From: Bradyrhizobium genosp. SA-3
GTDB taxonomy: Bacteria > Pseudomonadota > Alphaproteobacteria > Rhizobiales > Xanthobacteraceae
DNA: 64,000 nt
Direction of reading: 5' to 3'
NCBI RefSeq assembly: GCF_004212635.1
Contig: NZ_PSRT01000012.1
Coordinates: forward strand, 1-64,000
A program made the translations under genes and the position numbers. The notes beneath the pieces were generated by a model, which saw nothing but the letters and a program-made list of their open reading frames with translations, was not told the origin of the DNA and made no database searches. Below, piece after piece: positions 13,543 through 23,293 of the stretch (within the stretch, counting starts at the first letter, position 1; each line of letters begins with the position of its first letter).

Positions 13543-13989
13543 CTAGGTCGATCGTTTGGCCGGCTTATTCGTGGCCTTGGACGCATTCAACTCCACGGCC
13601 GCGCGAATGAGCGCCTTCAACGCCTTCTCGTTGATTTGCTCGCCCTCGCGAATATCGATCGCGCGGCGCACGTTGCCGTCGAGGCTGGAGTTGAACAGGC
13701 CAGCCGGATCCTCCAGCGCCGCGCCCTTGGCAAAGGTCATCTTCACCACTTCCTTGTAGGTCTCGCCGGTGCAGATGATGCCGTCGTGCTCCCACACCGG
13801 AACGCCGCGCCATTTCCATTCCTCGACGACATCAGGATCGGCCTCCTTGATCAGTTCGCGAATTCGCCCCAGCATCTCGCCGCGCCAGTCGCCGAGTTCC
13901 TTGATCCTGCCGTCGATCAGCTTGGAGGAGGAAGCCCCATTCGCTTCCTTCGCGCCGGCCTTCTTCGCCGTCACAGCCTTCTTCATCAT
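13543..13989 (-). CDS. DUF1801 domain protein
   Basis: 148 residues from the ATG at 13989 (a second ATG follows directly); the longer open frame upstream is unlikely. The N-terminus is a Lys/Ala-rich tail. The DUF1801 core follows, with EEWKWRGVPVW, the GETYKEVVKMTFAKGA segment and a C-terminal helix. Members are small, possibly iron-carrier-related or YdhG-like; biochemical role unknown. Last gene of a minus-strand group headed by the ArsR regulator at 14984. Confidence 0.8.
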   Translation of the reverse strand: MMKKAVTAKKAGAKEANGASSSKLIDGRIKELGDWRGEMLGRIRELIKEADPDVVEEWKWRGVPVWEHDGIICTGETYKEVVKMTFAKGAALEDPAGLFNSSLDGNVRRAIDIREGEQINEKALKALIRAAVELNASKATNKPAKRST

Positions 13990-13999
13990 CTCGCCTCGT

Positions 14000-14203
14000 T
14001 CACGCGTTGCTGCGGCTGACATAGGGCCGCGCGAACAGATATAGCCCGGTCGCAAGCAATGGAATGAGTGGGACGAGCGCCAGGAAGCCGATCCACACGG
14101 CCTGGACCTGCGTGATCATCGCCACGATGTTGGCGATGACGGCGAGCGTGAAAGCCATCGACAGCCAGCGATGAATCTGCCGAATCCACATGTGTGTGCT
14201 CAT
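14000..14203 (-). CDS. Small two-helix membrane protein
   Basis: 67 residues with two hydrophobic helices (about 13-33 and 37-57) after a short N-terminus MSTHMWIRQIH; the C-terminal tail is short and basic. An AGGAGGT-like ribosome site lies just upstream of the ATG. It sits 41 bases downstream of the SRPBCC gene in the same orientation, so it is probably co-transcribed with the ArsR/SRPBCC pair. No named function; resembles short conserved membrane proteins found in such operons. Confidence 0.7.
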   Translation of the reverse strand: MSTHMWIRQIHRWLSMAFTLAVIANIVAMITQVQAVWIGFLALVPLIPLLATGLYLFARPYVSRSNA

Positions 14204-14244
14204 TGGACCTCCTTTGAAAATGATCGGAATGGATCGCGAGGGAG

Positions 14245-14664
14245 CTAGTCTGCCCGTGCCAGCAGCTCGTCGAGCTTGGCAAAAAACTGCTTCCAGCCGG
14301 CATGTGCGCCGCCATAAGCCTGCTTCTGCGTCGGGCTGAAGCCCGCTTGCTCGACGCGCAGATGCGTGCCGGCGCCGGTCGGCGTCAGCGTGAAGGTCAC
14401 GACGCTTTTCAGGTCGAACGCCGCATCCTCATGCGAGAAATTCCAGGTGTAGGCGAGCGTCTTCTGCGGCTCGATGGTGAGCACCTCGCAGTCCAGCACG
14501 CCGCCCCATTCGCCGCGAAGATTGAAGCGATGGCCGACGACCGGCTTGAAGTCGTTCTTCATCAGCCATTCCTCGATCAGATGCGGCTGCGTCAGCGCGC
14601 GCCAGATCCGCTCCGCCGGAAAGGCAAATTCGCGTTCAACGATTACGGAGCGTGTTTCGGTCAT
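14245..14664 (-). CDS. SRPBCC / AHSA1 family protein
   Basis: 139 residues with the START-like AHSA1 pattern: REFAFPAERIWRALT near the N-terminus, a central LAYTWNF segment, and a C-terminal AGWKQFFAKLDELL helix. This fold binds hydrophobic ligands; in ArsR-linked pairs the role is unknown. Its ATG overlaps the ArsR stop by four bases (ATGA), so expression is coupled to that regulator. Confidence 0.88.
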   Translation of the reverse strand: MTETRSVIVEREFAFPAERIWRALTQPHLIEEWLMKNDFKPVVGHRFNLRGEWGGVLDCEVLTIEPQKTLAYTWNFSHEDAAFDLKSVVTFTLTPTGAGTHLRVEQAGFSPTQKQAYGGAHAGWKQFFAKLDELLARAD

Positions 14665-14984
14665 TGGTCCATCCTCTTCAGGAGATCGTCGAGCGCGTCG
14701 AGCCGGTTCTGCCAGAACCCGGCCATCTGGCTGGTCCAGTCGATCAGCGGATTGAGCGCACCGGGCTGCGCACTGTAATGGGTCTGGCGTCCTTCATGGC
14801 GGTCGCGCACGAGGCCGGCCTGCTTTAGGGCGCCGAGATGCTTCGAGACCGCCGGCTGGGACACGCCGGATTTCACCGTCAGTGCCCCCACCGTCTGTTC
14901 GCCCTCCCGGCACAGCCGTTCGAAGAGCGCCCGCCGGGTCGGATCGGCGAGCGTCCTGAACAGGAGGTCATGCGCGGCGGACAT
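14661..14984 (-). CDS. ArsR-family transcriptional regulator (SRPBCC-linked type)
   Basis: 107-residue winged-helix repressor. The recognition helix region reads SQPAVSKHLGALKQAG, followed by the wing RHEGRQTHYSA. It lacks the paired cysteines of the classical metal-binding ArsR alpha-3 site, so it is probably not a metal sensor. Two perfect CCATAAC-N6-GTTATGG operators start eight bases upstream of its ATG, pointing to autoregulation of the whole minus-strand operon. Confidence 0.92.
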   Translation of the reverse strand: MSAAHDLLFRTLADPTRRALFERLCREGEQTVGALTVKSGVSQPAVSKHLGALKQAGLVRDRHEGRQTHYSAQPGALNPLIDWTSQMAGFWQNRLDALDDLLKRMDQ

Positions 14985-15197: not shown

Positions 15198-15647
15198 TTA
15201 CGGCCGCAAGTACAAATACCCCTGCGCCTGCAGCTCAGCCAAACGGACCACGCCGCCTTTCTCTGCGCTGACGAAGCCCGGCAACAGCTCCTTCAGTGAG
15301 ACGTTCTGCGCCTTCATCGTGTTGCCGCAGGCGGCGAGCTCGACGCCGTCCTTGGAGAAGTCACCGACACCCTTGCTGACCTCGGGGTTGGCCTGCGCCG
15401 CGTGAAACGCCTTCAGCGCCGGTCCGTGGATCACCAGCGCGATCGTGACATGGTCGGGACCACCGACGCCGTCGATGTGGTTCTGGATGTTGCCGAGCAC
15501 GAAATTGACCTTCTCGGCGTCGCTGAGGTGATAGGCCACCTTGAGCTTGTTGCTCACGCTGGCCTCAGTGGCGGCTTGTGCATGCGAAGCGCCAAACGCC
15601 GCACCCAGGGCCGAGACGGCGCTCCACAAGATGTTCCGGCGATTCAT
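15198..15647 (-). CDS. Exported DsrE-family protein
   Basis: 149 residues from the ATG at 15647 (GGGAG upstream). The first 25 or so residues form a signal peptide (MNRRNILW, hydrophobic core, AHAQA-like cleavage site); the paired Arg might allow Tat export. The mature part resembles DsrE/YchN-like folds: VIHGPALKAF, then a single Cys in ELAACGNTM near residue 105. The conserved Cys suggests sulfur or thiol chemistry in the periplasm, but that is inference. Confidence 0.78.
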   Translation of the reverse strand: MNRRNILWSAVSALGAAFGASHAQAATEASVSNKLKVAYHLSDAEKVNFVLGNIQNHIDGVGGPDHVTIALVIHGPALKAFHAAQANPEVSKGVGDFSKDGVELAACGNTMKAQNVSLKELLPGFVSAEKGGVVRLAELQAQGYLYLRP

Positions 15648-15684
15648 GGCGATCTCCCTCGACCAAGACTTTGCCGGACACATA

Positions 15685-16305
15685 TCATTTGTGACGCAGC
15701 GCGGCGAGTTCCTTGCGGTCGGTCACGAGCGAAGCGCACTCGCTATTGTCGGTACGGTTGAGGCGGAAGATCTTGTCGTCGGCGCCGGCGACCAGCGATT
15801 GCTCGGCCTCATCATCCGGCTTGTTGTTCTGCCAGACCCTGACCTGTTCGAGCCGGATGATCGCGGACTTGTTGTCCTTGGAGAGCGCCACCTCGATCCC
15901 GCCGCCCTCGCAGTCGACGCCGCAGCCCATGCGGACCTCGTCCCCCTGACTGAGAAGCACTGCATGACTGCCGCACGAGCCGCTGGAGTCGAAATCGCCC
16001 GAGCGATGGCGATAGCGAAAACCGAGGCGGAAGGAATTGTGCAGCTGCTTGTCTTCCTTGTCGGTTTCCGCCGAGATCAACAGCTTCATGGAAGCGACTT
16101 TCTGCTTGGGATGCCGCGCCAGATGCTCGGCATCGTAGCGGCGGACGAAGCAGGCATAGGCCTTGTCAGCAGGCGCCCCCGCATAGAGCCGCGCATTGAA
16201 GGCGTCGGCTTCTGCCTTTGTGGTCTCCCGGACCTTGTCCTCATCGGCGTGGGCGACGCTGGTTAGCGCAGCCAAAGTGAGGGCAGCAAAGATGGAGAGC
16301 TTCAT
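15685..16305 (-). CDS. Exported protein of unknown function
   Basis: 206 residues from the ATG at 16305, chosen because a clean signal peptide (MKLSIFAALTLAALTSVAHA) begins there; the open frame extends to 16473 without support. The mature protein has four cysteines, in the segments AYACFVRR, SSGSCGSH and GCGVDCEGG, and a fifth in NSECAS, which suggests disulfides in the periplasm. I do not recognise the family. It is just upstream of the exported DsrE protein in the same direction and divergent from the cyclase gene. Confidence 0.72.
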   Translation of the reverse strand: MKLSIFAALTLAALTSVAHADEDKVRETTKAEADAFNARLYAGAPADKAYACFVRRYDAEHLARHPKQKVASMKLLISAETDKEDKQLHNSFRLGFRYRHRSGDFDSSGSCGSHAVLLSQGDEVRMGCGVDCEGGGIEVALSKDNKSAIIRLEQVRVWQNNKPDDEAEQSLVAGADDKIFRLNRTDNSECASLVTDRKELAALRHK

Positions 16306-16630
16306 GACAACCTCGAGCGCGTGACAACCTTGCCGCAGCAGGACAGAACTCCTGTCCGTTAGACGCAGGCGAGATGCATCGCGTTCAAGCTTCAGAAGTC
16401 GCTTCGTGCGACCATCGCGGCGCCGACTCGGGCCAGTGGCTTCGCGCCGGGCCTTAGTCATTGATGGGATCAAGAAGGTTCAAGCGGTGTAGCGCCTTGA
16501 TGCTTCGGAACCCGATGCCGGCAATTGCTGCGACATTGTCTTGGTTCGTCAATGTGATAGCTTTCACAGACGACCGCCTTTGGCAGTCGTAAGCTGGGAC
16601 TGCCTTGTTAAGTTTGTGGAGTCCCCCGCA

Positions 16631-18157
16631 ATGGGCGAAATTCGCAACTTCAGATCCGGAAATCAGGATGGGCCGCCTCCACGCGACTCCATGCCTCGCC
16701 GTCTCGCAGCAATCATCGTAGGCGACATCGCGTCCTACAGCCGCATGATGCAGGCCGACGAGGAGGGCACGCATGTCCGCGTCAAGCGGATCGAGCGCGA
16801 CCTCATCCAGCCCACCATCGTCGAGCATCATGGAACTCTGGTGAAGACGACGGGCGATGGCTTCATCGCCATCTTCGATAGCCCTGTTGAGGCCGTTCGC
16901 TGCAGCATCGTCATCCAGCAGAACCTCATCGGCCGCAACGCCTCGCTTCCGAAGCATTCGCGCCTCGAATACCGGATCGGCGTCAATCTCGGCGACGTGA
17001 TCGTGGAGCCGGACGATGTCTACGGCGACGGCGTCAACATCGCCACGCGCATCGAGGGCATTGCCGAGCCCGGTCAGGTCTATATCTCGGGCGCGATCTA
17101 CGAGCAGATCAAGCACAAGGTGGTGTGCGGCTATGAGTCGCTCGGGGACCGCAAGGTCAAGAACATCACCGATCCGGTGCGCATCTATCGCGTGCTGCCG
17201 GATGCCGATGCGGTCGGCAGGACGCGAAGCCGGCGCGAGAATGTCCTGATCTTCCTCTTGGGCATCACAGTCTTGATGATTGCCACGGGCTCACTTTGGT
17301 ATTTGCTGACGCAGCCCGGCAGGATGGGCGAGCAGGCGGCCACGCCAACCGCTTCCCCGGCGGCGTCACCGATCCCGCAGCCGTCGCCGCGGGAAGCGGC
17401 GACGCAGACTCCACAACCATCCCCATCACTGGCTTCTGCCCCTCCGTCGTCGTCACCGGCCCCCAGCCCATCGGCGACGCCACCTCGCGAACCCGAGATG
17501 ATCGGCATTCGCGGCGGCAGCTTCGCGATGGGAAGCAATGACGATCCGACCGAACGGCCTGTCCACCAGGTCACGATCAAGCCGTTCTCGATCGGAAAAT
17601 ATCCGGTGACGGTGCAGGAATGGAACGAATGCGCCGCCGCCAAGGCGTGCGGATTCACCGCCACCGGCAAGGACGATACGCCCGTCAGCAATGTGAGCTG
17701 GACCGACGCGCAGCAATATGCCGCCTGGCTCGCGCAAGCGACGAAGAAGGCCTACCGGCTTCCGAGCGAAGCCGAATGGGAATATGCGGCGCGCGGCGGA
17801 ACGCAGACCAAATATTGGTGGGGCGACAAGCTCCAGCCGGGCATGGCCGGATGCAAGGATTGCGGTGATCTTGCGGCCGAGCAGCCGGCCAAGGTCGGCA
17901 GCTTCAAGCCCAATCCATTCGGGCTCTACGACATGGGCGGCGGCATCGATCAGTGGGTCGAAGACTGCTGGCACAGGATCTATCAGGGCGCGCCGAGCGA
18001 CGGCTCGGCATGGAGCAGCGCGGACTGCAGCTCTCATGTCCTGCGGTCGGGCTCCTGGAAGAACGATTCAAGATATGTCCGGCCGTCAAACCGCGATGGT
18101 TACGACACCAATGTCCGTTACCCCACGCATGGATTCCGTGTCGCACTCAGTCCGTGA
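16631..18157 (+). CDS. Class III adenylate/guanylate cyclase fused to a SUMF1-like domain
   Basis: 508 residues from the ATG at 16631. Residues about 25-190 form a class III cyclase with an intact site: metal Asp32 and Asp76, Lys72, and Asn136/Arg140 for transition-state binding. One membrane helix (about 198-219) follows, then a Pro/Ser/Thr-rich linker, then a formylglycine-generating-enzyme-like (SUMF1) domain (GGSFAMGS, LPSEAEWEYAARG, GFRVALSP). The predicted layout is cytosolic cyclase and periplasmic SUMF1 domain, which could be a sensor module because its order reverses the usual sensor-then-cyclase plan. The paired catalytic cysteines of true sulfatase-activating enzymes are not obvious. 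A secreted DUF4399 gene follows at once. Confidence 0.88.
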   Translation: MGEIRNFRSGNQDGPPPRDSMPRRLAAIIVGDIASYSRMMQADEEGTHVRVKRIERDLIQPTIVEHHGTLVKTTGDGFIAIFDSPVEAVRCSIVIQQNLIGRNASLPKHSRLEYRIGVNLGDVIVEPDDVYGDGVNIATRIEGIAEPGQVYISGAIYEQIKHKVVCGYESLGDRKVKNITDPVRIYRVLPDADAVGRTRSRRENVLIFLLGITVLMIATGSLWYLLTQPGRMGEQAATPTASPAASPIPQPSPREAATQTPQPSPSLASAPPSSSPAPSPSATPPREPEMIGIRGGSFAMGSNDDPTERPVHQVTIKPFSIGKYPVTVQEWNECAAAKACGFTATGKDDTPVSNVSWTDAQQYAAWLAQATKKAYRLPSEAEWEYAARGGTQTKYWWGDKLQPGMAGCKDCGDLAAEQPAKVGSFKPNPFGLYDMGGGIDQWVEDCWHRIYQGAPSDGSAWSSADCSSHVLRSGSWKNDSRYVRPSNRDGYDTNVRYPTHGFRVALSP

Positions 18158-18174
18158 GTGCTGGAGTAGATTTG

Positions 18175-18624
18175 ATGAAGATCATTTCCTGTGTCGCCCT
18201 GGCGGCCGCGATCGCATTGCTCCCGGGCGCGGCCTACTCGCAGGGCAAGAGCGCGCACAAGGACGCCAGACTCTATTTCATCACGCCGCATGACGGGCAG
18301 AAAGTTCGCGGTGGATTCTGGGTCCGGTTCGGCTTACGCAACATGGGCGTGACGCATGCTGGCGATGACTACCAGAACGCCGGTCATCACCATCTGCTGG
18401 TCGACGTCAACGATCCCATCGATCCCAAGGAGCCGATCCCGCAGGACAAGTCGCACCTGCATTTCGGTGCAGGGCAGACCGAAACCATGCTGGACCTTCC
18501 GCCGGGCACGCACACGCTGCAGCTGGTGCTCGGCGACGCCAAGCACTATCCGTTCGTACCGCCGGTCGTGTCGGAGAAGATCACGATTCGCGTCAGGCCG
18601 ACGGCTTCAGCGCGGAGTAAATGA
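18175..18624 (+). CDS. Exported DUF4399 protein
   Basis: 149 residues with a signal peptide (about 1-22, ending AAYSQ). The mature part is the DUF4399 fold: FITPHDGQKV, MGVTHAG, and the His-rich HHHLLVDV segment. Its role is unknown; the histidines suggest metal binding. It starts 17 bases after the cyclase-SUMF1 stop, so both are probably one transcript. Its stop codon directly abuts the stop of convergent korB (18622-18624 and 18625-18627). Confidence 0.85.
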   Translation: MKIISCVALAAAIALLPGAAYSQGKSAHKDARLYFITPHDGQKVRGGFWVRFGLRNMGVTHAGDDYQNAGHHHLLVDVNDPIDPKEPIPQDKSHLHFGAGQTETMLDLPPGTHTLQLVLGDAKHYPFVPPVVSEKITIRVRPTASARSK

Positions 18625-19680
18625 TCACCGCAGGCTGGCGTTGATCTTGTCCAGCACCGCCGAGCCCGGGCACAGCGTGTCCGCCTCCAGCGTGTTGAGC
18701 GGCGTCTCGACCGTGTTGAGATGCTCGTGCAGGTCTTCCGCGTCGGGGTCGACATAGAGCAGGCCGGTGACGATCTGCCCTTTGGCGGCGTGTTTCTGGA
18801 GGAAGGTCATCGCGCCCAAACGGTCATGCGGATCGTAGTCGGCGTCGATCTTGCGCAGCGCGACGTTGCTGCCGTCGTGCTGTTCCACCACCTGCACCGT
18901 GCCCGGCGCATAGTCCACAGCGATCGGATCGCGGCCGACCAGTACGTCGAGCCGGTTCACCGCGTCATTGTGCTCGCGGACATAGTCAAAGCTCTTGGTC
19001 GAGCCGGCATGGTTGTTGAAGGCGATGCAGGGGCTGATGACGTCGATGAACGACGCGCCCTTGTGGCGGATCGCCGCCGCGATCAGCGGCACGAGCTGGG
19101 TCTTGTCGCCGGAGAAGGAGCGCGCGACGAAGGTGGCACCAAGTTGCAGCGCGATCGCGACGAGGTCGATCGCGTTGTCGGTGTTGGTGACGCCCTTCTT
19201 GGATTTCGAGCCGCGGTCAGCGGTGGCCGAGAACTGGCCCTTGGTCAGGCCATAGACGCCGTTGTTTTCGACGATATAGGTCATGTTGACGGCGCGCCGG
19301 ATCGAATGCGCGAACTGGCCGAAGCCGATCGAGGCGGAATCGCCGTCGCCGGAGACGCCGAGATAGATCAAATCGCGGTTGGCGAGGTTGGCGCCGGTCA
19401 GCACGCTGGGCATGCGGCCATGCACCGAGTTGAAGCCGTGTGAGTTGCCGAGGAAATAGTCCGGCGTCTTCGACGAGCAGCCGATGCCGGAGATCTTTGC
19501 CACTCGATGCGGCTCGATCGAGAGCTCGTAACAGGCCTCGATGATCGAGGCAGTGATCGAATCGTGGCCGCAGCCGGCGCACAGGGTCGAGATCTTGCCT
19601 TCGTAATCGCGGCGGGTGTAGCCGAGCTCGTTCTTCTTCAGGCCCGGATGGTGGAATTTCGGCTTGGCAATATAGGTCAT
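18625..19680 (-). CDS. korB: 2-oxoacid:acceptor oxidoreductase, beta subunit
   Basis: 351 residues carrying the thiamine diphosphate site: LCAGCGHDS near residue 35, GIGCSSKTPD, and the GDGDSASIGFG / ENNGVYGLTKG segment. It decarboxylates a 2-oxoacid (most likely 2-oxoglutarate) with KorA and passes electrons to ferredoxin or to KorC. The start overlaps korA by four bases. Subunit size matches the small subunit of KGOR-type enzymes. Confidence 0.92.
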   Translation of the reverse strand: MTYIAKPKFHHPGLKKNELGYTRRDYEGKISTLCAGCGHDSITASIIEACYELSIEPHRVAKISGIGCSSKTPDYFLGNSHGFNSVHGRMPSVLTGANLANRDLIYLGVSGDGDSASIGFGQFAHSIRRAVNMTYIVENNGVYGLTKGQFSATADRGSKSKKGVTNTDNAIDLVAIALQLGATFVARSFSGDKTQLVPLIAAAIRHKGASFIDVISPCIAFNNHAGSTKSFDYVREHNDAVNRLDVLVGRDPIAVDYAPGTVQVVEQHDGSNVALRKIDADYDPHDRLGAMTFLQKHAAKGQIVTGLLYVDPDAEDLHEHLNTVETPLNTLEADTLCPGSAVLDKINASLR

Positions 19681-21524
19681 GACACGGCCTTGCGGAGCGG
19701 GGTCACCTTGAGGTGATCCTGATGGTCGCCAATGGCTTTTGCGATGAAGCGGGCGGTGATCGGGGTGCCGTCGTAATGCACGATCGGCACGAGGCGGACG
19801 GGATCGATGCCATTCTCGTTGACGATGAGCTGGCGCAGTTGGCTGTCGCGGTTCTGCTCGACCACGTAGACGAAGTCGTGCTCGGCGAGGAAGCTCGCAA
19901 CGCTGGAGTGGAACGGGAAGGCACGAATGCGCAGACGATCGAGTTGGTGTCCACGCGCTTCCAACAGGCCGACCGCTTCGTCCATCGCCGGCGAGGTCGA
20001 GCCGAAATAGATCACGCCATATTTGGTCGGCCGTTCCGCATTGGCCTGCAGCGGCCGCGGTACGAGGTCCTGCGCGCTCTCGAACTTGCGCACCAGGCGC
20101 TGCATGTTGTCGGCATAGACCGTGCCTTCCTCGGAGTAGCGCGCATAGCGGTCGCGCGAGGTGCCGCGGGTGAAGTAGGAGCCCTTGGTCGGATGTGTCC
20201 CGGGATAGGTGCGGTAGGGGATGCCGTCGCCGTCGACGTCGAGATAGCGGCCGAAGTCGCGGCCTTCCTCCAGCATCTCCGCCGTCATGATCTTGCCGCG
20301 GTCATATTGCCGGGCATCGTCCCATTTCAGCGGGCGGCAGAGCCGATGGTTCATGCCGATGTCGAGGTCGAGCATCAGGAAGATCGTGGTCTGCAGCCGC
20401 TCGGCGAGGTCGAACGCGGCGGCGGCGAACTCGAACGCTTCGGCGGGATCTTCGGGGAACAGCAGCACATGCTTGGTGTCGCCGTGCGAAGCATAGGCGC
20501 AGGCGATGATGTCGCATTGCTGGGTGCGAGTCGGCATGCCCGTCGAGGGGCCGGCGCGCTGGATGTTCATGATGACGGCGGGAATCTCGGCAAAGTATGA
20601 GAGGCCGATGAACTCCGTCATCAGCGAGATGCCGGGGCCCGAGGTCGCGGTGAAGGCGCGGGCGCCGTTCCAGGAGGCGCCAATGACGATGCCGATCGAG
20701 GCCAGCTCGTCCTCGCCCTGCACGATGGCGTATTTCGCCTTGCCGGTCTCAGGATCGTGGCGGTACTTCTTGCAGTGGGCGGTGAAGGCCTCCGCCACCG
20801 ACGACGACGGCGTGATCGGATACCAGGCGCACACGGTGGCGCCGCCGTAGACGGCACCGAGCGCGGCGGCGCTGTTGCCCTCGATGAAGATGCGATCGCC
20901 GACCTTGTCGGACTTCTTCACCCGCAGCCCGATCGGGCATTTCAGGTTCTGCAGCGCCCAGTCGCGGCCGAGATGCAGCGCGTGGACGTTGGAGGAGAGC
21001 AGCTTCTCCTTGCCCTTGTACTGCTCGCCGATCAGTTGCTCGATCAGCTTCGGATCCATGTCGAGCAGCGCACTGAGGCTGCCTAGATAGATGATGTTCT
21101 TGAACAGCTGGCGCTGGCGCGGATCGGTATAGGTCGAGTTGGTGATCGCGGTGAGCGGCACGCCGATCACGGTGATGTCGTCGCGGAATTTGGTCGACGG
21201 CATCGGCTTGGTGGAATCGTAGAACAAATAGCCGCCGGGCTCGATGCCGGCGACGTCCTTGTCCCAGGTCTGCGGGTTCATCGCCACCATCATGTCGACG
21301 CCACCGCGGGCGCCGAGATGGCCCTCTTCCGTCACCCGCACCTCGTACCAGGTCGGCAGGCCCTGGATGTTGGAGGGGAAGATGTTGCGCGGTGAGACCG
21401 GAACGCCATGGCGCAGGATCGCGCGCGCGAACATCTCGTTGGCGCTGGCCGAGCCCGAGCCGTTGACGTTGGCGAAGCGGACGACGAAGTCGTTTACGCT
21501 GCTGAGCGGCTTTTTGTCGGGCAT
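19677..21524 (-). CDS. korA: 2-oxoacid:acceptor oxidoreductase, fused gamma-alpha subunit
   Basis: 615 residues from the ATG at 21524; the longer frame to 21608 lies inside korC. The N-terminal gamma domain (NGSGSASANEMFARAI) occupies about residues 1-190; the alpha domain starts near GNSAAALGAVYGGA and contains WYPITPSSS. Gamma-alpha fusion is normal for bacterial two-subunit KGOR. It overlaps the end of korC by 31 bases and korB by four, so the three genes are tightly linked. Confidence 0.92.
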   Translation of the reverse strand: MPDKKPLSSVNDFVVRFANVNGSGSASANEMFARAILRHGVPVSPRNIFPSNIQGLPTWYEVRVTEEGHLGARGGVDMMVAMNPQTWDKDVAGIEPGGYLFYDSTKPMPSTKFRDDITVIGVPLTAITNSTYTDPRQRQLFKNIIYLGSLSALLDMDPKLIEQLIGEQYKGKEKLLSSNVHALHLGRDWALQNLKCPIGLRVKKSDKVGDRIFIEGNSAAALGAVYGGATVCAWYPITPSSSVAEAFTAHCKKYRHDPETGKAKYAIVQGEDELASIGIVIGASWNGARAFTATSGPGISLMTEFIGLSYFAEIPAVIMNIQRAGPSTGMPTRTQQCDIIACAYASHGDTKHVLLFPEDPAEAFEFAAAAFDLAERLQTTIFLMLDLDIGMNHRLCRPLKWDDARQYDRGKIMTAEMLEEGRDFGRYLDVDGDGIPYRTYPGTHPTKGSYFTRGTSRDRYARYSEEGTVYADNMQRLVRKFESAQDLVPRPLQANAERPTKYGVIYFGSTSPAMDEAVGLLEARGHQLDRLRIRAFPFHSSVASFLAEHDFVYVVEQNRDSQLRQLIVNENGIDPVRLVPIVHYDGTPITARFIAKAIGDHQDHLKVTPLRKAVS

Positions 21525-23293
21525 GTCGAACCTGCGTGGGTCATCTCGATGAAATATTTCTGCATGTCCCAGGCGCCGGTGGGACAACGCTCGGCGCACA
21601 GCCCGCAATGCAGGCAGACGTCCTCGTCCTTCACCATCACTCGCCCGGTCTTGAGATCCGAGGAGACGTAGAGATCCTGGTCCGGATGCGGCGCGGGCGC
21701 CTTCAGCCGCTGGCGCAGGTCGTTTTCCTCGCCGTTATCAGTGAAGGTGATGCAATCCATCGGGCAGATGTCGGCGCAGGCATCGCACTCGATGCAGAGC
21801 GAGGTCGAGAACACGGTCTGCACGTCGCAGTTCAGGCAGCGATGCGCCTCGCCGAGCGCGAGCTTGACGTCGTAGCCGAGCTCGACCTCGGCGCGGATGT
21901 CCTTCAGCGCGACGACCTTGTCGCGATGCGGCACCTTGAAGCGCTTGTCGATCGAGATGTCGTTGTCATAGCTCCATTCGTGGATGCCCATCTTCTGCGA
22001 GGAGATTTGCACCTCCGGCAGCGGGCGTTCGCTGACATCCTCACCCGAGAGCAGTTTGTGGATCGACAGCGCGGCGTCATGGCCGTGCGCGACCGCCCAG
22101 ATGATGTTCTTGGGGCCGAACGCGGCATCACCGCCGAAGAACACCTTTGGATTGGTCGAGACGAAGGTGTTCGGATCGACCTTGGGCATGTGCCATTTGT
22201 CGAACTCGATACCGCAATCCTGCTCGATCCACGGAAAGGCGTTCTCCTGGCCGACCGCGACCAGCACGTCGTCGCATTCGAAGGTCTGGTCGGGCTCACC
22301 CGATGGAACGAGGTTGCGGCGGCCCTTGGCGTCGTATTCGGCCTTCACCTTCTGGAAGGTGATGCCGGTGAGCTTGCCATTGTCGTGGATGAATGCGACG
22401 GGGACGAGGAAGTTGAGGATCGGGATGTCCTCGTGGATCGCGTCCTCCTTCTCCCAGGGCGAGGCCTTCATCTCCTCGAAGCCGGAGCGCACGACGACCT
22501 TGACGTCTTCGCCGCCGAGGCGGCGCGCGGTGCGGCAGCAATCCATCGCGGTGTTGCCGCCGCCGAGCACGATCACGCGCTTGCCTATTCTGTCGGTATG
22601 GCCGAACGACACCGAGGCCAGCCACTCGATGCCGATATGGATGTTGGCGGCGGCTTCCTTGCGGCCGGGAATGTCGAGCTCGCGGCCGCGCGGCGCGCCG
22701 GAGCCGACGAAGATCGCATCATACTTCTCCGCGAGCAGCGCCTTCATGCTGTCGATGCGGTGACCGCCCTTGAAGTCGACGCCGAGACCCAGGATGTAGC
22801 CGGTCTCCTCGTCGATGACGGAATTGGGCAGGCGGAATTTCGGGATCTGCGTGCGCATCATGCCGCCGGCTTCGGGATCGGCATCGAACACGGTGCAGTG
22901 ATAGCCGAGCGGCGCGAGATCGCGCGCCACCGTCAGCGAGGCCGGACCGCCGCCGACCAGCGCAACGCGCTTGCCGTTCTTCGCGGCGGGGCGCGGCAGG
23001 CGCTGCTTGATGTCGTCCTTGAAGTCGGCGGCGACGCGCTTGAGGCGGCAGATCGCGACCGGATTGTCCTCGACGCGTCCGCGGCGGCACGCCGGCTCGC
23101 ATGGACGATCGCAGGTGCGTCCCAAAATTCCAGGGAACACGTTCGATTTCCAATTGATCATGTAGGCGTCGCTGTAGCGGCCTTGTGCGATCAGTCGGAT
23201 ATATTCGGGAACCGGGGTGTGCGCAGGACAGGCCCACTGGCAATCGACCACTTTGTGAAAGTAGTCGGGGGCCGCAATGTCGGTCGGTTTCAT
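21494..23293 (-). CDS. korC: FAD/NAD(P)-dependent ferredoxin-type oxidoreductase (KorC-like)
   Basis: 599 residues. The N-terminal DPYD/GltD-type domain has cysteines in CQWACPAHTP and TCDRPCEPACRRG. FAD and NAD(P) Rossmann loops (GGGPASL near 113 and LGGGNTAMD near 240) follow. Two C-terminal 4Fe-4S clusters are near 501 (CIECDACADICP) and 558 (CLHCGLCAERCP). It is the likely electron partner that lets KorAB reduce NADP+; 2-oxoglutarate:NADP+ oxidoreductase with three subunits of similar sizes is described in Azoarcus. It is the first gene of the operon. Symbol by analogy. Confidence 0.85.
   Translation of the reverse strand: MKPTDIAAPDYFHKVVDCQWACPAHTPVPEYIRLIAQGRYSDAYMINWKSNVFPGILGRTCDRPCEPACRRGRVEDNPVAICRLKRVAADFKDDIKQRLPRPAAKNGKRVALVGGGPASLTVARDLAPLGYHCTVFDADPEAGGMMRTQIPKFRLPNSVIDEETGYILGLGVDFKGGHRIDSMKALLAEKYDAIFVGSGAPRGRELDIPGRKEAAANIHIGIEWLASVSFGHTDRIGKRVIVLGGGNTAMDCCRTARRLGGEDVKVVVRSGFEEMKASPWEKEDAIHEDIPILNFLVPVAFIHDNGKLTGITFQKVKAEYDAKGRRNLVPSGEPDQTFECDDVLVAVGQENAFPWIEQDCGIEFDKWHMPKVDPNTFVSTNPKVFFGGDAAFGPKNIIWAVAHGHDAALSIHKLLSGEDVSERPLPEVQISSQKMGIHEWSYDNDISIDKRFKVPHRDKVVALKDIRAEVELGYDVKLALGEAHRCLNCDVQTVFSTSLCIECDACADICPMDCITFTDNGEENDLRQRLKAPAPHPDQDLYVSSDLKTGRVMVKDEDVCLHCGLCAERCPTGAWDMQKYFIEMTHAGSTCPTKSRSAA

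Follow-up and report, generated by a model that had tools for sequence, protein, structure and literature searches.

The window, a stretch of 64,000 nucleotides from a Bradyrhizobium genome of 8.7 Mb, encodes a putative receptor cyclase that holds up as a real unit: conserved, narrowly distributed and accompanied by a constant partner. Judged from its sequence, this membrane protein probably makes cAMP inside the cell upon something outside, and is paired with a small, predicted exported protein of the DUF4399 family. To our knowledge, the signals of rhizobial class III cyclases are mostly unknown; a defined ectodomain with a constant partner, belonging to one of the 39 class III cyclase matches of this genome, lends itself directly to ligand screening and genetic testing.

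The cyclase-SUMF1 fusion and its DUF4399 neighbour

The features of the locus are listed in Table 1. An initial annotation of the window had described a protein with all cyclase residues, a long Pro/Ser/Thr linker and an extracytoplasmic, FGE-like C-terminal domain, followed 17 bases later by a secreted, His-rich DUF4399 protein; each of these elements was recovered here, the placement outside the cytosol as a prediction. A start of the fusion gene at 16631 is favoured over 16541, because homologue alignments begin at residue 1.

Table 1. Features of the fusion/DUF4399 locus and of the divergent upstream genes
Feature	Position	Strand	Basis
Cyclase-TM-linker-SUMF1 gene	16631..18157	+	ORF, 508 aa; Pfam; full-length homologues
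Class III adenylate/guanylate cyclase catalytic domain, predicted cytosolic	16721..17161	+	residues 31-177, PF00211
Transmembrane helix (predicted), N side in	17243..17299	+	residues 205-223; hydropathy and charge bias
Pro/Ser/Thr/Ala-rich linker, predicted periplasmic	17300..17488	+	composition
SUMF1/FGE-sulfatase-like domain, predicted periplasmic	17489..18145	+	residues 287-505, PF03781
GGAG, probable DUF4399 ribosome-binding site	18163..18166	+	by eye; similar purine-rich stretches in homologous loci
DUF4399 partner gene, exported (predicted)	18175..18624	+	149 aa; Pfam; 3' of fusion in 79/80 loci
DUF4399 signal peptide (predicted)	18175..18240	+	about residues 1-22; cleavage site by eye; hydrophobic stretch 3-17
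DUF4399 domain, FN3/Ig-like beta sandwich in model, invariant His	18322..18597	+	PF14347; model
DsrE/F-like exported protein gene	15198-15683	divergent from fusion	Pfam
Exported-looking protein gene	15685-16473	divergent from fusion	Pfam: no match

The Pfam Guanylate_cyc model matches with 44.2 bits (cut-off 21.9), and the closest solved cyclase structure by sequence is PDB 3mr7 (E 4e-44). By alignment the class III cyclase domain is intact in its catalytic residues: D32, D76, K72, D129, N136 and R140, which, helped by the alignment with 3mr7, we take to be the metal, base and transition-state residues of the class, are invariant in 51 aligned sequences. By the usual residue rules of the class, K72 and D129 presumably point to ATP rather than GTP as substrate. 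Neither CHASE2 nor Peptidase_C14 (caspase p20) gave a Pfam match in the fusion protein up to E 0.001.

The layout with an extra domain C-terminal to the cyclase had been regarded as unusual and turned out to be ordinary here. Among 30 distinct cyclases examined out of the 39 matches in the same genome, 12 have an N-terminal cyclase with at least 170 residues after it, and in four of these a helix follows soon after the cyclase. They share cyclase subfamily and domain order with the fusion, but differ in their C-terminal parts: TPR repeats were found in four of the six proteins scanned and SUMF1 in none of the six. A second class III cyclase match on the same contig (G000:C12:70458-70982) lies beyond the window in a frame of 1118 aa.

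A topology with the cyclase inside and the SUMF1 domain outside is well supported as a prediction from sequence, against the cytosolic SUMF1 domain that the initial annotation had named as a refutation. The fusion protein has one hydrophobic helix, and lysine plus arginine are more numerous before it than after it in all 51 sequences; the K+R-rich flank of a membrane helix faces the cytosol (positive-inside rule), which places the cyclase there. Six cysteines of the SUMF1 domain (334, 340, 408, 411, 446 and 466) are kept in 51/51, in line with an oxidising compartment. Among the loci listed, related SUMF1 proteins elsewhere mostly begin with a hydrophobic, signal-peptide-like stretch (hydropathy and eye). 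All membrane and export assignments were made by hydropathy and eye only, and not every frame reached the threshold; in the export survey some frame starts lie too far upstream, and the DUF4399 frame of locus L147 opens inside the domain. Measurable in 46 of the 51 sequences, the linker is 59-96 aa long (median 72) and contains 25% Pro; its dN/dS of 0.17 is the highest of the parts (7 pairs). A structure prediction for the full-length fusion was unusable (pLDDT 44).

The C-terminal domain matches the FGE-sulfatase model with 190.6 bits (cut-off 23.3), has a low dN and lacks hypervariability. A formylglycine-generating enzyme (FGE) was considered and rejected: the catalytic Cys pair, which we take to be represented by LCHESYC in the FGE-like protein L001 of the same genome, is replaced at both positions in 49 of 49 DUF4399-linked SUMF1 domains, so that the domain is not an FGE.

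The downstream gene begins 17 nt after the fusion stop codon and its product matches DUF4399 with 130.4 bits (cut-off 28). The predicted protein has a signal-peptide-like start and seven histidines (H61, H71-73, H94, H96 and H124) invariant in 51 sequences. By sequence it matches nothing in the PDB (best E 0.8). Its model (pLDDT 75.5) is closest to FN3/Ig-like domains (best VIA-align Z 9.7, with an rmsd of 2.8 across 88 residues), including those of chitinase, mannanase and sulfite oxidase; these neighbours are generic, and the fold therefore assigns no function. The FN3/Ig-like model together with the invariant histidines would suit partner binding and metal binding alike.

Conservation of the pair

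Co-occurrence of the two genes, proposed in the initial annotation as a check on the unit, proved strong. In 117 genomes of the genus the fusion is present at 82 places in 81 genomes, none of which lacks DUF4399, and at 81 of these places the next gene, in the same orientation, is DUF4399; at the exception (G098) the fusion match stops one base short of the contig end. Neither gene was found in 25 of the 117. DUF4399 without a counted fusion occurs in 11, including G073, where the fusion is split across two contigs and DUF4399 adjoins the SUMF1 half, and G006 and G026 with weak or partial matches. Among 129 genomes of the family the fusion is present in 15, all DUF4399-positive. In one of these 15 (G120) the DUF4399 gene is a tandem one and convergent with the fusion. 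In the genus sample, G078 has two copies of the pair, C1:6720771-6722321 and 7138561-7140088, the second copy in two separate frames.

A set of 80 loci with a relative of the fusion, which overlaps the 117-genome set and is not independent of it, comprises 76 from Bradyrhizobium, three from Alphaproteobacteria bins and one from Tardiphaga. DUF4399 lies directly 3' in 79 of them and the remaining one (L108) is cut by the contig end. The intergenic gap is 15-126 nt and stays below 60 nt at 70 of 79 loci. Thirty-four of the 80 loci have no other neighbour from the window in the stretch of about 6 kb or less on each side; even there DUF4399 is next in 33 by tblastn, and a contig end intervenes in the last. 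No constant third gene was found in these 34 loci, the next commonest gene families occurring in 19; the ORF picking used in this survey detected DUF4399 itself in 21 of the 34 loci, against 33 by tblastn.

The cyclase, the SUMF1 domain and DUF4399 are all under purifying selection, with dN/dS of about 0.06, 0.09 and 0.10, respectively (window against seven near relatives). Chance or artefact as the origin of the architecture is ruled out by the full-length conservation and the pairing. The distribution is narrow: 150 genomes from 89 genera of the order yielded no fusion outside the genus, the only two full-length matches being from the same genus, though other members of the family do carry it.

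The initial annotation had also named two exported proteins, encoded divergently upstream, as possible partners. Both genes are present, and the DsrE/F-like gene recurs in 46/80 loci and its neighbour in 44/80, but neither was found in the 34 loci with a different neighbourhood (about 6 kb or less on each side), and they were rejected as members of the unit. The DsrE/F-like product has, by eye, a Tat-like RR close to its N terminus. Farther upstream (13543-14984) lies a row of ArsR-type regulator, AHSA1 and DUF1801 genes, each in 44/80 loci. On the other side (18625-23293), and convergent with the DUF4399 gene, are genes named by eye as a 2-oxoacid:ferredoxin oxidoreductase-like pair and a GltD-like one.

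SUMF1 and DUF4399 in other loci

A second type of locus combines a tandem DUF4399 with a nearby caspase and a SUMF1 protein without cyclase, whose SUMF1 domain is 44-52% identical to that of the window. In the genus sample, each of the 17 loci with a tandem DUF4399 has a caspase nearby and 15 have SUMF1; the other two lie on contigs of 3.5 and 5.9 kb. SUMF1 is near nine of the 12 tandem loci in the rest of the family sample; L237 and L238 have a tandem DUF4399 with neither SUMF1 nor caspase on the contig. At L143-L150, L153-L162 and L228-L232, caspase genes adjoin tandem DUF4399 and SUMF1; some of these loci are near-identical (L228/L232, L157/L230) and hence not independent.

Caspase motifs were compared in 38 domains, of which the contig-cut L152, L182 and L178:2731 and also L205, which repeats the L209 fusion in truncated form, were set aside; L231:10791, whose N-terminal part falls in a different frame, was included in the count. 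All 25 uncut separate caspases in DUF4399 loci retain the His-Cys motifs, while the nine SUMF1-fused ones all lack the Cys motif, with the His motif kept in four. No separate caspase occurs in the stretch examined at five of the nine fusion loci (L146, L149, L150, L151 and L209). Three caspase-SUMF1 fusions have no DUF4399; two of them retain both motifs and the third the Cys motif. SUMF1 without DUF4399 was found at L277-L281, with fused caspases bearing both motifs in L277 and L280. The distinction between intact separate caspases and Cys-less SUMF1-fused ones in DUF4399 loci is a testable pattern by itself.

Further arrangements retain the two domains. At L151 (5720-10553) a pseudo-caspase-SUMF1 and a cyclase-SUMF1 protein flank one two-domain (tandem) DUF4399, and the genome has no further DUF4399 match. 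Locus L275, from another family of the order, has DUF4399 and SUMF1 frames on one strand with 4-base overlaps (starts unconfirmed). In G065 a SUMF1 protein with a non-cyclase N-terminal part directly precedes DUF4399, representing a third membrane form. This locus (L180:94-7533) starts with a 1765-aa protein without Pfam match, and the N-terminal part of its SUMF1 protein contains a CxxC, possibly zinc-ribbon-like (by eye). Genes of RND efflux pumps (ACR_tran) were observed near DUF4399 loci at L149:1051-4143 and L151:2507-5680.

In a tree of 57 SUMF1 domains the cyclase proteins group with G065 in a clade (100/97) whose sister is a pair of proteins from a family outside the class, one of which is a pseudo-caspase fusion. 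The remaining pseudo-caspase proteins and the short forms, with the f110 operon, form a second clade (100/98). The state 'DUF4399-linked' amounts to one change on this tree, the branch between linked and unlinked domains being weak (81/0). From the sequences we infer that the link between SUMF1 and DUF4399 predates the cyclase fusion. Relatives of the pair lie next to caspase-like proteases that look exported, which suggests that a single sensing module serves two types of output.

DUF4399 itself is spread more widely: 100 of the 398 genomes in the phylum sample have it. Among 28 regions examined from other families in that sample, three (L208, L209 and L211) have SUMF1 nearby, and the other 25 have neither SUMF1 nor caspase near DUF4399. 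The genus sample contains 14 DUF4399 places outside the fusion, tandem, G065 and G073 types, among which L236 is a partial one at which the profiles matched nothing and G006, G008, G026, G049 and G059 are weak or partial; eight of the 14 are lone loci with no SUMF1 near. DUF4399 without nearby SUMF1, caspase or fusion was recorded at L173-L177, L181, L210, L212-L227, L233-L235 and L239-L247. Such frequent occurrence without SUMF1 indicates that DUF4399 can act without it. At L218 a cyclase domain lies some 3.6 kb from DUF4399, and at L177 (3311-5878), where SUMF1 is absent, an AsmA-family gene immediately precedes DUF4399.

Proposed function, alternatives and known systems

With slightly better than even confidence, we interpret the fusion as a receptor adenylate cyclase that has a second protein as its partner in the periplasm, so that SUMF1 and DUF4399 would form a sensing pair with exchangeable output. 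Of the envelope-to-cAMP signalling unit suggested in the initial annotation, this retains the tethered cyclase and the constant DUF4399 partner. Class III cyclases work as dimers, and the N-terminal domain would do so in the cytosol; the single helix would span the inner membrane and the long, flexible linker would extend into the periplasm. The SUMF1 domain, with a C-type-lectin-like fold and no FGE Cys pair, would be the ligand- or partner-binding ectodomain. The DUF4399 protein, probably encoded in the same operon and exported, would bind this domain or deliver a ligand to it, and the contact may shift how two receptors sit together, so that cAMP goes up or down. The durable unit would be SUMF1 plus DUF4399, with an output that differs between the clades, the cyclase in this one and caspase machinery in its sister. 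Other membrane sensors are known to be acted on by soluble accessory proteins of the periplasm, as CpxA is by CpxP; the resemblance is an analogy and not evidence for the pair.

A broader proposal, which we regard as tentative and would give clearly less than an even chance, is that SUMF1 and DUF4399 serve Alphaproteobacteria and some other Proteobacteria generally as an exported surveillance pair, with membrane-coupled cAMP as output in one clade and exported caspase machinery in the sister clade, the cyclase having replaced a pseudo-caspase on the SUMF1 domain. The dead caspase joined to SUMF1, or a lone SUMF1 protein, would then govern an active caspase; this is weakened by the five of nine dead-caspase fusion loci that show no separate caspase in the stretch examined.

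It is unlikely that the SUMF1 domain is an enzyme (PvdO-, FGE- or EgtB-like) that modifies DUF4399 or its cargo, the cyclase reporting the state of the reaction or serving as an anchor. The nearest solved SUMF1-fold structure by sequence is indeed PvdO (5hha, E 6e-35), a periplasmic enzyme of pyoverdine maturation and also the best-scoring NCBIfam model, but PvdO is a stand-alone enzyme and the window domain scores far below the equivalog cut-off of that family (136.9 against 500 bits). Among the next PDB matches are PorK, TvpA and ToxD kinase, which are not named as such enzymes, and the FGE Cys pair is replaced throughout the linked domains. At least 48 of the 49 linked domains agree in 47 columns, more than we would expect of a loose binder; these could also be fold residues. 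We consider it quite unlikely that the loci represent an envelope conflict or programmed-death system, with SUMF1 detecting an invader or damage and exported caspase proteolysis or a cAMP alarm as response. The contrast between motif-bearing separate caspases and Cys-less fused ones would fit such a system, and FGS domains joined to caspase or cyclase have been proposed as invader sensors (PMC8195603). The components here nevertheless look exported, unlike the intracellular systems described in print; the Pfam scans, covering a selection of proteins, gave no STAND NTPase, the SUMF1 domain shows no hypervariability (low dN), and more than half of the fusion loci have no separate caspase in the stretch examined. 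A known anti-phage system was rejected: padloc returned only weak matches in six proteins (PycC 1e-4 for the cyclase, PD-T4-6 0.0017 for helix plus linker, caspase 3e-6 and 6e-9). Very unlikely, finally, is a plain operon in which DUF4399 acts alone in the envelope as a metal or ligand carrier and is merely co-transcribed with the cyclase. Its occurrence mostly without SUMF1 in other families (25 of 28 regions) would agree with this, as would the pairing of another DUF4399 protein with a DoxX-family protein predicted in print (PMC13311259), but the link with SUMF1 survives changes of gene order, strand, fusion and genomic setting, and co-transcription alone is thus no explanation.

Receptor cyclases with an envelope helper are described from Sinorhizobium meliloti, where CyaD1, CyaD2 and CyaK act with the outer-membrane protein NsrA (PMC13001267). 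Like the fusion, as predicted for the window, they are class III enzymes that produce cAMP upon an external signal, aided by a separate envelope protein; they differ by a CHASE2 ectodomain and a beta-barrel helper in place of SUMF1 and DUF4399. The orthocaspase/metacaspase-FGE-sulfatase architecture has been in print since 2012, with 33 of 671 sequences (PMC3501461). These proteins contain a related SUMF1 domain, often beside DUF4399 in the genomes examined here, but have a caspase in place of the cyclase, and PMC3501461 does not belong to the three papers of the searched literature in which DUF4399 is named. Pseudo-orthocaspases are common in Rhizobiales, which account for 561 of 582 alphaproteobacterial ones (PMC6426788). 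FGS (PF03781) has been proposed as a sensor of lectin fold coupled to caspase, kinase or cyclase, and nucleotide cyclase, FGS, TRADD-N and caspase are combined in one Gemmata massiliana protein (PMC8195603). These conflict systems share with the loci studied here PF03781 joined to cyclase or caspase, but are described as intracellular systems that include STAND NTPases, EADs and, in many cases, DGR, whereas the proteins of the loci studied here look membrane-anchored or exported and include DUF4399.

Caspase-FGE fusions, PF03781 as a sensor with caspase or cyclase, and pseudo-orthocaspases are therefore known already. Among the literature matches listed, which leave subscription journals mostly uncovered, no description of a rhizobial cyclase-SUMF1 fusion or of SUMF1 with DUF4399 was found. 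As far as the literature was searched, the DUF4399 partner, the membrane or exported setting and the exchange between cyclase and caspase are new, and the wider association of SUMF1 with DUF4399 is apparently undescribed. The hardly studied DUF4399 family gains a concrete candidate partner, and the exported-looking caspases of these bacteria are tied to the same SUMF1-DUF4399 pair; if the broader proposal above is correct, second-messenger signalling and envelope proteolysis would both answer to a shared sensor.
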